Shown here: positions 12,574 through 34,378 of the stretch, piece by piece
How the letters are laid out: the number at the start of each line of letters is the position of its first letter
How positions within the stretch are numbered: the first letter of the stretch is position 1
Source: a virus
Length of the DNA stretch: 39,479 nucleotides
Reading direction: 5' to 3' (one strand)
Virus record (IMG/VR): IMGVR_UViG_3300006750_000022
Span: 1 to 39,479 of that record
Notes under the pieces: generated by a model
Told to the model about the DNA's origin: nothing
Databases searched by the model: none
Seen by the model: only the letters and a program-made list of their open reading frames with translations
Translations under genes and position numbers: made by a program

Positions 12574-13364
12574 TATGCAACCGCTACAAAGTCAGCATTG
12601 TCAGACATCTTCTTAATAGTATTATAGACATTGGACTCTAGCTTATGAGTTGTCTCTTTATCTCTATTAAGAACGTGTGTTGCCATCCAAGTACAAGTAT
12701 TTAGTAAATCCCAATACGTTTCTGGCTTATGTGTCAGTAGATGATTAACAAGACTTTCCATAGATTGCTCAGGGAACAGTTCTATTATCTTAGCTATATC
12801 AGACTCATTTACTTTTATCCCTTGTAGGTCAGGTAGGTCATGTTCAATCGCTTGTATTGACGTTCTAATCATATCAGGGAGAGTAGTATCAAGATTCTCC
12901 ATATTTGGATTGAATACGCTATGTCTGTTATTGAATGTGCCATAGGTTATCCCTATAATCATTCCGTTGCTACAGACTAACCTGTATGCTCCACACATGA
13001 TGTATACCTGGGATGACCCATCATAGCTATTCCCCATTATGATCTCAGGATGCATATCATCCTCTCCGACTTTAACTGTCTGAGGGAATCTAAACTTCCA
13101 TCTACACCTGGCTCCACGTCCAAAAGACTTTTCTTCAACAAGTCTTCCTTCATATTCTTTGATAATCTTTTCAGATTTATCAAAGACTTCTTGATTGCTG
13201 ACTAGCTTGTATTCGTTGCTCATACAACTAATCACTTTATCGGTAGCTGAATTAACTATGAACTTATATCCAGTATTGTCATTTAATCCAAGCATTGCTG
13301 GCATTTCCTTTACTGGGAATAAGACATCATTATTTCGTTGGTGTTGTAGTATCTGATTGCTCAT
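12573..13364 (-). CDS. DUF932 (phage/plasmid-like) protein
   Basis: The central segment NSYDGSSQVYI followed by GAYRLVCSNGMIIG is the hallmark of DUF932 proteins, common in phages and plasmids. The biochemical role of the family is not established. GGAGG stands nine bases before the ATG, inside the end of the upstream gene, and the 3' end is coupled to the methylase. Position suggests a role in DNA metabolism or modification; that is inference. Confidence 0.85.
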   Translation of the reverse strand: MSNQILQHQRNNDVLFPVKEMPAMLGLNDNTGYKFIVNSATDKVISCMSNEYKLVSNQEVFDKSEKIIKEYEGRLVEEKSFGRGARCRWKFRFPQTVKVGEDDMHPEIIMGNSYDGSSQVYIMCGAYRLVCSNGMIIGITYGTFNNRHSVFNPNMENLDTTLPDMIRTSIQAIEHDLPDLQGIKVNESDIAKIIELFPEQSMESLVNHLLTHKPETYWDLLNTCTWMATHVLNRDKETTHKLESNVYNTIKKMSDNADFVAVA

Positions 13365-14661: not shown

Positions 14662-14925
14662 TTAGCCTTTCCCTTTAAAAAAACCAAGCTGCGTTTTGTC
14701 CTCTGGCTTCCATTCAAAGTCATACAGAGTGTATTCTCCTCTATACTTGCTTTTGATTTTCTTAGCATGTAATTGCTTTGGATTTGATAGAGATTTATAT
14801 GGAATAGTCATCTCTTCTCCATTATGATCTATTATAAGGTCTTCTCTATCTTGCGCACATCTCTTAACAACGTAATCCCTAACAGATACATGACCTTTCC
14901 ATACTTTCTTAACTAGATATTTCAT
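14662..14925 (-). CDS. Hypothetical protein, 87 aa
   Basis: The product is basic and beta-rich (VSVRDYVVKRC, IIDHNGEEMTIPYKSL), resembling a small SH3- or OB-like fold but without a recognised family. The start overlaps the stop of the upstream gene by 4 nt, with an AGGGAGG run just before the coupling site. The 68-aa frame at 14562-14768 runs through its end in another frame and is taken as a shadow. Confidence 0.7.
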   Translation of the reverse strand: MKYLVKKVWKGHVSVRDYVVKRCAQDREDLIIDHNGEEMTIPYKSLSNPKQLHAKKIKSKYRGEYTLYDFEWKPEDKTQLGFFKGKG

Positions 14926-15379: not shown

Positions 15380-15612
15380 TAGTCTCCCTCCGTTCCACCT
15401 GGCACAGGTGACGGGCCCTTTGCCCGAACAGGTTTATCATTATTAAATTCTTTAAACCTCTCAAACTCAGAATCAAAGTGCCACGGCTTTTCAACTATGT
15501 CTATTATTTGACCTGGGCTACAATTTCCTGCTGCTACCCATCTAAGGAATTGTATAAACTCCTCGCTTGAGTGACATTCATTTCCCGTCATTGTGAAGCT
15601 TGTAATTTCCAT
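15379..15612 (-). CDS. Hypothetical protein, 77 aa
   Basis: I place the start at the ATG at 15612 (MEITSF) because AGGAGG lies eight bases upstream; the longer frame to 15651 starts before that site. The product has a helical middle (SSEEFIQFLRWVAAGN) and a Pro/Gly-rich tail ending in EGD. No family recognised. It overlaps the upstream gene by 35 nt. Confidence 0.65.
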   Translation of the reverse strand: MEITSFTMTGNECHSSEEFIQFLRWVAAGNCSPGQIIDIVEKPWHFDSEFERFKEFNNDKPVRAKGPSPVPGGTEGD

Positions 15613-15781
15613 TGTCGTCATCCTCCTTATTGATTTCGTATTTTTCGGCATATTCTTGTGCTATTCTAGTAAGGTATGTTGGGAGCACATGAGGGCCACG
15701 TACCAGTATTGCTTCTATGAGATGCTCAGCATCTTTAACTCTCTCTTTTAACCGTTGTATATATGGTACGTCAGGCTTCAT
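15578..15781 (-). CDS. Hypothetical helical protein, 67 aa
   Basis: AAAAGGAG precedes the ATG by five bases. The product is largely helical (IQRLKERVKDAEHLIEAILV) with an acidic end. It is the first gene downstream of the 400-nt gene-free structured region, and an 8-bp hairpin (15800-15807 with 15821-15828) stands just before its ribosome site. Confidence 0.7.
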   Translation of the reverse strand: MKPDVPYIQRLKERVKDAEHLIEAILVRGPHVLPTYLTRIAQEYAEKYEINKEDDDNGNYKLHNDGK

Positions 15782-15795
15782 GTTTTCTCCTTTTA

Positions 15796-16199
15796 ATTTT
15801 TTAGAGAACGATAATTTCTATCTCTAAATCTTTATGGATGGTTAGCCCCTTACTCCGCAAACAGAGTATTAACCGTGTGTGTTTATAGTCTAACACTTAA
15901 TAGGGCTCTAGATTCATTACGGCAACTACCTATTAGAGGTGTCCAGCAATTTCTACCAATCTTAAATTGGCTCATCGGTGACCATCCATAATTTAGATGG
16001 GACTTGGCAAGGCGTTTCGAGACTCATAACTTGCGGTAGCGAATCTCGGTCTAGTCGCAGATGTATGGATTTAGTTAGCCTGCAGGACACTTATTCCATT
16101 CCATCTTCCAAGCCCCCTCGAAATTTTGCGACATGCTCATAGTATCGTTTGAGGGTTTTACCCGAGGTAAGGGTTGATTTGCTATGAACATGCCGACTT
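15796..16199 (-). ncRNA. Candidate structured non-coding RNA of about 400 nt
   Basis: This is the longest gene-free stretch in the window. It holds several stems: a 14-bp stem (16129-16142 with 16182-16195), an 8-bp stem (16018-16025 with 16041-16048), a 7-bp hairpin (15851-15857 with 15862-15868) inside a 5-bp stem (15840-15844 with 15870-15874), CCAAT/ATTGG (15956-15970), CCATC/GATGG (15982-16000) and an 8-bp hairpin (15800-15828). All four imperfect pairs in the first three stems are G-U on a minus-strand RNA but A-C mismatches on the plus strand, so the RNA is read leftward, co-directional with the flanking genes. I do not recognise the class; it is not tmRNA or RNase P by motif. Confidence 0.6.
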
Positions 16200-16201
16200 C
16201 A

Positions 16202-16849
16202 TTAAAATGGAATATCGTCAGCTTCTAATTCATCAGAGCTTTTAGGTTGCCCTTCAGCCCAGAATTGAGAATCTTTGACTTTCCATACACTTCTTACTTC
16301 CTGTTGATGTTTAGGAAGCTCCCTTGTATCCTTTGTAACGAAGTGTTCTTGCATAAGTCTCACTAAGTAAGGCTTACCAATAACATCGTCAGTCTCAGGG
16401 ATTTCTAACTTGTACGTCAATGTGCCATCTTTATCAACTGACTCGGTTTCAATTCCGAGATTAGTCAGCCAATCAAAGTAGCCTTTATTACGACCAGACT
16501 CACTTCCTGAGTCAAATAGGAAAACGCCTTTACCTCTAAATCGCTTTCCTACTATGTGCTTACAATCAGTAATCGTCTGTTGACCTCTCTCATTGTGTAC
16601 GGGAACTCTATGCCCTTCATTATCTGTGGCATAGTTATATCCATCCATTTCCCACACTAGTTGAGTTAGCTCTTTAGCTTCATCAGCAATCTCGTATTCT
16701 AGTTCAAATACAGTTGCTTGATTACCTCTTACCGTAACTGGTCGCTCATTTAACGCACAGATGTGTGCAGGGTAGAGATTCCCATCATCTATAGGTCTCC
16801 ATCCTGCCTTTGATTTACTAGGATCAAACGTGGCTTCTGAGGTTCTCAT
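16202..16849 (-). CDS. Single-stranded DNA-binding protein-like, DDIPF tail
   Basis: The 215-aa protein ends in EADDIPF, the acidic tip by which bacterial and phage SSBs recruit partners. The body is beta-rich (FELEYEIADEAKEL, TYKLEIPETDDVI), consistent with an OB-fold, though closer to phage-specific SSB types than to E. coli SSB. It would coat single-stranded DNA for the neighbouring Sak3 annealing protein. AAAGGGA precedes the ATG. The stop is intact and adjacent to the structured RNA region. Confidence 0.8.
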   Translation of the reverse strand: MRTSEATFDPSKSKAGWRPIDDGNLYPAHICALNERPVTVRGNQATVFELEYEIADEAKELTQLVWEMDGYNYATDNEGHRVPVHNERGQQTITDCKHIVGKRFRGKGVFLFDSGSESGRNKGYFDWLTNLGIETESVDKDGTLTYKLEIPETDDVIGKPYLVRLMQEHFVTKDTRELPKHQQEVRSVWKVKDSQFWAEGQPKSSDELEADDIPF

Positions 16850-32785: not shown

Positions 32786-34378
32786 ATGGCTGTACACACA
32801 GCAACACCTGCTTTCCTGAGCGGCTCAACGGGGCTGACCGAATCTGGAACTGGCATAGTAGCTGGTTCAGGTCTAAGTACTGGCGATCTTCGTAGACGAT
32901 ATGACTTCTCTGAAAGATTTTCAGAACTTGCATTAGACCAGACTCCATTCTTTAGAATGGTATCTAAGGTTTCTAAGGCACCTGTTGACGACCCTCAGTT
33001 TAAGTATACAGAAAAACGTGGTTCAATCCACAAACGATACGCATACGTTCTCGGTTTTGAGAATAGTAGCACCGCATTGTTTAATGATGCTACAATAGTA
33101 GCTCAGAATGATGGCGGTGTACCAGTAGTAGGCGACACCCTGAAATTGATTATGGGAACTGATTACAAATCAGCTGGTAACATTCAGAATGTTTCAGGTC
33201 AGTCAACTGGTGCGATGGCAGTAGGTTCTGCAGGAACTGCCCCTGAGTTCTTTCTAACAAATCAGGTCGTAAAGATCAATGTATCTGAGACAGCTGGAGG
33301 TGACGCTACCATTAGCGATTATATCCTAATGCGAGTCACGGCTGTTGATGATGCGATAGATGCTAGTGACGCTGCTAACCTGACGGGTTCTAATACCCTG
33401 TCTGGAGCGGTGAATGTTAGGAGAGTTACGGGAACGGTTGTCAGAGCCTCTGGAACGGGTGGTGAGTTGACTTCTTTTTCAAGCAACGCACCTGTAACAG
33501 CTGTTTACAATGTAGACATCGCTACTGCTCTTGAAGCACAGCGTTGTCATGTTGTAGGCTCTGCATACGCAGAAGGTTCTAGTCTTTCGGAAGAGACTTG
33601 GAACGATAACCCATACAGTACGTCATATGGACAGACTCAGATTTTCAGAACTGAGTTTGGTATGACGAACACTGCAAGAGCAACTGCTCTTAAATACGAA
33701 CCTAATGAATGGGCACGTATTTGGAGAGATAAGTTGATTGAGCATAAGTGGGACATCGAACAAGCATCTCTATTTGGAAAACAGGGATCAAGCGGAAGTG
33801 GCTCATCTACTGTGTATTACACACAGGGAGCTGTTGACTTTGTATTGCAATCGGGTAACATATTTACTCTTACCCATTCAAGTAAGACATCTGATGACTT
33901 CCTTGATGATATGAGTAAGTATCTCGATCCTCGATACAACAACTCAGCTGCTTCGGTTTACTTCTGCGATACTGCTACCTACCATTGGCTGTTAAAGCTT
34001 GGTAGTGGTAGTCACAATGCGATGTTTGCGAACATTGTTCACGATGGTCAGGATAACTTTACTGGACGTTGGGACTTTGCAACATCAGGTAAGAAGAGCC
34101 TCTTCGGAGTTGATCTTACTAATATTGTGACTCCGTATGGCGACATCAAAGTTGCTCGTTGTATTGCACTAGATCATAGCTCAGTCAAGATTCTCGGACT
34201 CAACATGAAGCACGTGAAATATCGTCCTCTTGTTGGAAACGGCATGAATCGTGACACTGCGGTCTATGTAGGAGTACAATCGCTAGAGAACACAGGCAAA
34301 GATAAGAGAGTTGATATGATACTCACTGAAGCTGGGTTTGAGTACTCTATGCCAGAAGCTCACGCTATTTGGAAATAG
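32786..34378 (+). CDS. Major capsid protein
   Basis: 530 aa, directly after the scaffold with a strong AAGGAG. It contains LRRRYDFSERFSELALDQ then TPFFRMVSK near residue 55, a pattern of HK97-fold capsid proteins of SU10/DUF5309 type, a variable middle rich in Thr/Ser/Gly (about 130-240, probably an inserted domain), and a C-terminal beta-rich part (GRWDFATSGKKSLFGVDLTN). Forms the icosahedral shell. The fold assignment is inference from context and local pattern. Confidence 0.87.
   Translation: MAVHTATPAFLSGSTGLTESGTGIVAGSGLSTGDLRRRYDFSERFSELALDQTPFFRMVSKVSKAPVDDPQFKYTEKRGSIHKRYAYVLGFENSSTALFNDATIVAQNDGGVPVVGDTLKLIMGTDYKSAGNIQNVSGQSTGAMAVGSAGTAPEFFLTNQVVKINVSETAGGDATISDYILMRVTAVDDAIDASDAANLTGSNTLSGAVNVRRVTGTVVRASGTGGELTSFSSNAPVTAVYNVDIATALEAQRCHVVGSAYAEGSSLSEETWNDNPYSTSYGQTQIFRTEFGMTNTARATALKYEPNEWARIWRDKLIEHKWDIEQASLFGKQGSSGSGSSTVYYTQGAVDFVLQSGNIFTLTHSSKTSDDFLDDMSKYLDPRYNNSAASVYFCDTATYHWLLKLGSGSHNAMFANIVHDGQDNFTGRWDFATSGKKSLFGVDLTNIVTPYGDIKVARCIALDHSSVKILGLNMKHVKYRPLVGNGMNRDTAVYVGVQSLENTGKDKRVDMILTEAGFEYSMPEAHAIWK

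Follow-up and report, generated by a model that had tools for sequence, protein, structure and literature searches.

What occupies the gap between two leftward early genes at positions 15782 to 16201 of a 39.5-kb virus record (39,479 nt; hereafter the window, meaning this whole stretch of DNA)? In the window, the TerS, TerL, portal, and capsid genes run rightward, and an early block encoding a Sak-like annealing protein, a Cas4-type exonuclease, a DnaB helicase, a methyltransferase, and a Holliday-junction resolvase runs leftward. A sequence-only reading had proposed that an ORF-free stretch of this early arm carries a structured minus-strand RNA of about 400 nt. The stretch is indeed the complete gap between two genes, extending from the end of an SSB-like ORF (16202 to 16849, minus strand) to the start of the next leftward ORF (15578 to 15781, minus strand), a frame of 67 aa with no assigned function and with its own GGAG ribosome-binding site. 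The SSB-like gene is identified by its acidic C-terminal tail (...DDIPF) alone; its product matched no PHROG or Pfam entry and no protein among the phage records. The sole ORF of at least 50 aa inside the gap is a 54-aa frame on the plus strand, which has no support.

Folding of the whole gap gave −123.1 kcal/mol (z = −5.2) on the minus strand and −108.2 kcal/mol (z = −1.6) on the plus strand. In 150-nt segments, the minus strand of the gap reached z-scores of −0.9 to −3.0, compared to values as low as −6.6 elsewhere in the contig. Given that the region is unexceptional in this contig-wide control, folding energy alone proves little, and we dropped it as main evidence; the decisive evidence for an RNA is comparative. 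The strongest local z-scores of the contig (−5.3 to −6.6) fall outside the gap in ORF-dense stretches (33601 to 33750, 14701 to 14850, and 13051 to 13200), which underlines how little such scores prove in this contig.

Homologues were reached through IMG/VR relatives found by way of TerL and Sak, followed by pattern scans on the shared stretch. In one contig among these relatives, 172 nt matched the region at 84% identity. A covariance model of the conserved RNA core, module C (15832 to 15992, minus strand, 5′ end at 15992), was built from 19 sequences, the window among them. Accepted copies scored 86 to 199 bits, with 46.6 bits for one copy cut by a contig end, whereas matches outside the accepted set scored at most 20 bits; one of these (L208, 19 bits) was excluded from the family as uncertain. 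The window copy scored 170.8 bits (E about 1e−49) against model R1, which itself includes the window sequence. With a copy from G038 added later, the alignment comprised 28 distinct sequences, and about 32 contigs carry module C when near-identical copies and the truncated one are counted. Copies are about 135 to 200 nt long, and each record has a single confident one. In a cross-genome comparison of intergenic DNA, 219 of 302 matches fell inside module C. Several candidates were rejected as chance or coding matches (L168, L170, L172, and L174 to L178, as well as the exact-pattern hits L182, L187, L193, L194, and L196 to L200). A motif spotted by eye after the SSB gene in L162 (the contig of L040) was also rejected; it lies on the strand opposite the early genes and has no model match.

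The secondary structure of module C, described here for the minus strand of the window, is closed by helix P1, in which 15981 to 15989 (5′ strand) pair with 15834 to 15842 (3′ strand); P1 is 96% paired, with double changes in 9 of 9 pairs. The junction that follows, CACCGAUGA (15972 to 15980), is identical in 28 of 28 copies. We propose that the ACCG of this junction pairs with CGGU at 15872 to 15875, a putative helix without covariation support because it is invariant. Hairpin P2 (15955 to 15971; 88% paired, double changes in 6 of 6 pairs) is highly variable in length from copy to copy. The P3 domain (15890 to 15946), of the form CUG-R-RYAY / RURU-YAG, pairs 15939 to 15946 with 15890 to 15896 (95% paired) and encloses P5 (15929 to 15934 with 15899 to 15904; 95% paired, double changes in 6 of 6 pairs). 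A possible CUCU/AGAG pseudoknot in this domain (15935 to 15938 with 15906 to 15909) is 80% paired and has zero double changes, and in about one-third of the copies the P5 part is swapped for a short hairpin with a UGACGA-type loop. There follow the conserved strand AGACUAUAAACAYACRCGGUUAA (15869 to 15891), of which ACUAUAAACA.ACaCGGUUA is nearly invariant among the 28 copies, hairpin P6 (15851 to 15868; 98% paired, double changes in 5 of 6 pairs), and an invariant AGGGGC (15845 to 15850), which UA follows in nearly all copies. The family is defined by the P1-P6 fold together with four near-invariant strands, CACCGAUGA, AAA.UGCUGG, ACUAUAAACAYACRCGGUUA, and AGGGGC, and the window copy has all of these.

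The stems of module C covary across the homologues, and the refuting condition set by the sequence-only reading, homologues that fail to conserve the stems, was therefore not borne out for C. In the model-fitted alignment of 28 copies, 95.2% of 978 pair cells are canonical, compared to 31 to 37% in slid controls. Double changes occur in 29 of 38 pairs; doubly changed cells number 255 versus 83 in shuffles, and the covariation score is 0.641 versus 0.212 in shuffles. A custom tree-aware null (threshold, E < 0.05) returned exactly five significant pairs from this alignment, all five inside the model and three of them in P1, a result to be read in light of the bias of a fitted alignment toward its model. 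On an unfitted alignment of 19 sequences, the same test found zero significant pairs (best E, 0.075). An unfitted MAFFT alignment had 88.1% canonical pair cells and a covariation score of 0.422, and RNAalifold, run on it with no structure supplied, recovered P1, P2, P3, P6, and the ACCG/CGGU helix. We conclude that module C is a strongly supported RNA family.

The same alignment settles the strand. The sequence-only reading had argued for a leftward RNA from G-U pairs in its best stems, and this argument was correct: the 28 homologues contain 83 G-U cells versus 7 A-C cells, so the RNA is the minus strand. The core is noncoding, and most homologues lack an open frame across it. A structured minus-strand RNA in the early arm is therefore confirmed by the comparative evidence from module C. 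What did not hold is its size, since the gap consists of three modules that occur separately elsewhere, and only C (∼160 nt) is broadly conserved.

Module B (15993 to 16121, minus strand) has an outer stem, GA.GGGRCUUGG / CCAAGUCCC.UC, around variable inner hairpins, and was found in five further contigs (L237, L239 with the same sequence in L173, L166, and L171). Its position relative to C varies: B precedes C in the window and L237 (L167) and follows it in L166, L239, and L173. In L171 it is found about 1.8 kb upstream of C, and the stem of this copy carries a compensatory change from UGG/CCA to CAG/CUG. Module A (16114 to 16201, minus strand) is a strong hairpin, AGUCGGCAUGUUCAUAG...CUAUGAGCAUGUCG with loop ACCCUUACCUCGGGU, that has few homologues: a similar hairpin with a longer insert precedes C in L171 (94% identity over 50 nt), and another was seen by eye before C in L163. 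Module A is probably an RNA, and at most probably, because a reading frame traverses the L171 copy. The best explanation for this pattern is that A and B accompany C as RNA modules that are reshuffled independently of it. Between C and the start codon that follows it, a small hairpin (15800 to 15828, minus strand) was detected by folding only (z = −2.8) and is a candidate.

Two further features of module B were noted. By eye, an inner hairpin with the loop GUGUCCUGCRGGCYAACYAAA is common to the window (15993 to 16121) and L171 (418 to 568), with stem changes that compensate, and it may be a further submodule. In addition, CCCAUC at the end of B (15996 to 16001) could pair with GGAUGG of P1 (15982 to 15987) in competition with P1, a potential pairing that is present where B adjoins C.

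Does module C belong to a known class? Rfam 15 (4,227 families, including GOLLD, ROOL, tmRNA, RNase P, self-splicing introns, ribozymes, and riboswitches) gave no family for the window at the gathering cutoff or at E up to 10. Among 11 homologous loci scanned at gathering, the sole match was a tRNA far from C, and nothing exceeded the gathering score in L189 at E up to 10 or in eight further loci at E up to 1. ARAGORN called no tRNA or tmRNA in the window. The impression that the region has no specific identity and is neither tRNA nor tmRNA thus agrees with the model searches. BLAST searches of phage records with the entire region and with several cores gave no match, and the window core by itself produced nothing better than weak partial hits in phages and plasmids (E of 0.5 or worse). 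There was no match to module C in 50,697 phage records, and an exact-pattern scan of 84,980 bacterial and archaeal species returned five hits, none with the RNA core. Literature searches, with most subscription journals outside our reach, found no account of this RNA. We set aside a possible word-level resemblance between rRNA and the conserved strands of C. A group I intron was rejected: Rfam gave no intron match, and in the window there are no gene halves to join, the SSB-type tail being complete upstream and the downstream ORF having its own start and ribosome-binding site.

Large ornate phage RNAs had been offered as precedents. GOLLD and ROOL are phage-encoded structured RNAs whose assembly into RNA-only nanocages is a matter of cryo-EM study (PMC12286853), and they hold as a loose analogy: like C, they are structured phage RNAs without an assigned function, and one C-bearing contig has a tRNA gene immediately ahead of B and C. 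The analogy ends there, however, because their Rfam models give no match to C, they are 600 to 800 nt or more whereas the C core is 135 to 200 nt, and they occur near tRNA islands whereas C lies inside an early protein operon with no tRNA island. C is also reminiscent of the marine metagenome motifs of Weinberg et al. 2010 (manA, wcaG, and PhotoRC-II), which are mostly environmental, with some in phages (PMC2864571). Unlike those, C has no fixed gene association, and it has no match in Rfam, where manA and PhotoRC-II are included (accessions in PMC2864571). Phage tRNA genes resemble C in being accessory, codirectional stable-RNA genes among phage genes, but C has no tRNA fold by either ARAGORN or Rfam.

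The genomic setting of C bears on what it might do. C lies on the majority strand of its neighboring genes in 31 of 31 records, which are related by descent and do not represent 31 independent events, and opposite to TerS in all 22 records with TerS, i.e., sense to the early genes. Across the 31 records, the genes flanking C are of about 19 types upstream and 21 types downstream, with gaps of 12 to 750 nt to the next substantial gene, and because these neighbors differ so widely no single gene is the regulatory client of C. The upstream gene stops only a few bases from P1 in several phages, implying that P1 marks the limits of C and that C is self-contained. C is absent from contigs with the early gene order of the window (G034, G043, and G046), and is thus accessory. 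No protein family is common to all C-bearing contigs, many of which are fragments, the widest being TerS and TerL; gene sharing among them reveals no RNP partner for C. In G005, the SSB gene is separated from modules B and C by a tRNA-Asn (GTT) gene (L237, 13828 to 13900). This gene lies about 150 nt upstream of C, B intervening, which indicates that other RNA genes share the site; it was the only tRNA near C among 30 loci scanned. One C-bearing assembly (G024, 71.5 kb; L221 to L224) has several gene families doubled (DnaB, SSB, and tail type) and is possibly chimeric or concatenated.

Orientation, single copy, neighbor independence, and patchy presence are best fitted by a stand-alone trans RNA gene, and the independence from neighbors makes a trans role more likely than a cis role. 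We regard C as probably a functional RNA gene and not a protein-coding segment. To the fuller reading, that C is an accessory trans-acting RNA gene, probably cut from the early transcript and most likely binding a host factor, we give about even weight. From its structure and distribution we infer expression, processing, target, and function as follows. C would be transcribed within a long early polycistronic RNA and, delimited by P1, probably excised from it. The observed helices P1, P2, P3/P5, and P6 would be brought together with the proposed ACCG/CGGU helix into a compact junction whose conserved strands may form an active or binding surface. Early in infection, the RNA would then act in trans, most likely through a host factor that it binds for takeover or counterdefense, and it would be exchanged between related phages across a large uncultivated clade. 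Two observations count against a trans role: in six records a single-strand-annealing (Sak-family) gene is next downstream of C, leaving room for a cis role there, and codirectionality is equally expected of a cis transcription element.

Such an element is the main rival, although we consider it unlikely. The putRNA of phage HK022 reportedly binds the passing RNA polymerase as it is made and confers resistance to termination; nascent C RNA could act similarly along the early operon. Like putRNA, C is a folded RNA in sense orientation within a phage early transcript, and its intergenic position, single copy per record, indifference to the next gene, and conserved unpaired strands would all suit such a role. 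That a cis RNA element can by itself act on early phage transcription is documented (PMC9378689). C is larger than putRNA, however, and any effect on transcription is only hypothetical. Moreover, the distance of C from the TerS end is 2.5 to 14 kb in most records, and C is sometimes close to where the early genes finish, which would be an unfavorable position for an antiterminator of that operon; close relatives manage without it.

More doubtful is a self-processing or processing element that would cleave the early mRNA, either as a novel self-cleaving ribozyme or as an RNase target. Consistent with this, C is in sense orientation at a position independent of neighbors, and its junction strands, arranged around a closed helix, are invariant; but nothing matched the Rfam ribozyme families, and invariant junctions are more than a bare RNase III site would require. 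Less probable again is a riboswitch-like RNA that senses a ligand and controls the next gene. C resembles typical aptamers in its compact multihelix junction and in the conservation of its unpaired strands; against this, the downstream gene, its distance, and the expression platform are not constant, and Rfam searches with the window and L189 turned up nothing similar at E values as high as 10. A packaging RNA like phi29 pRNA, partnering the terminase these phages share, is very improbable: TerS and TerL are indeed the widest-shared genes of C-bearing contigs, but C lies in the early region, and relatives with the same TerL have no model match in long records (G034, 60 kb; G043, 48 kb; G044, 43 kb). 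The comparison with pRNA by its own model was through the Rfam scans only. Finally, chance structure in a spacer, which unexceptional local z-scores might suggest, is already refuted for C by covariation, strand bias, and recurrence across many differing genomes, but may still account for the 15800 to 15828 hairpin and in part for module A, which are candidates only.

To our knowledge, structured phage RNAs fall into few known classes, most of which have no assigned function. We think it possible, somewhat short of an even chance, that C is the first of a new functional class, be it of host-directed takeover or counterdefense RNAs, ribozymes, or antiterminators, and that it travels with module B as a transferable cassette among the early operons of a major uncultivated clade. 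C has a compact, well-supported secondary structure, numerous copies, and a defined genomic context; it can be produced directly in vitro and is amenable to probing, cleavage, binding, and transcription assays. It also reveals an early operon in which RNA modules swap like genes, in a clade whose window representative has a portal protein with no match at E 1e−5 in 50,697 phage records and a TerL with only distant matches there (<60% identity, about 21 to 24% among the matches listed).

Two further sites near this family were noted by eye. Downstream of C, L163 (8390 to 8530) and L167 (256 to 400) have in common a stretch like CTTAACTTAAAAGGAGTCC within a long closing stem, a possible fourth module. 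The post-SSB gap of G043, a relative that lacks C (L162, 3784 to 4085), looks structured, with long stems and a possible CCCCC/GGGGG pseudoknot, and other RNA modules may occupy the same site.
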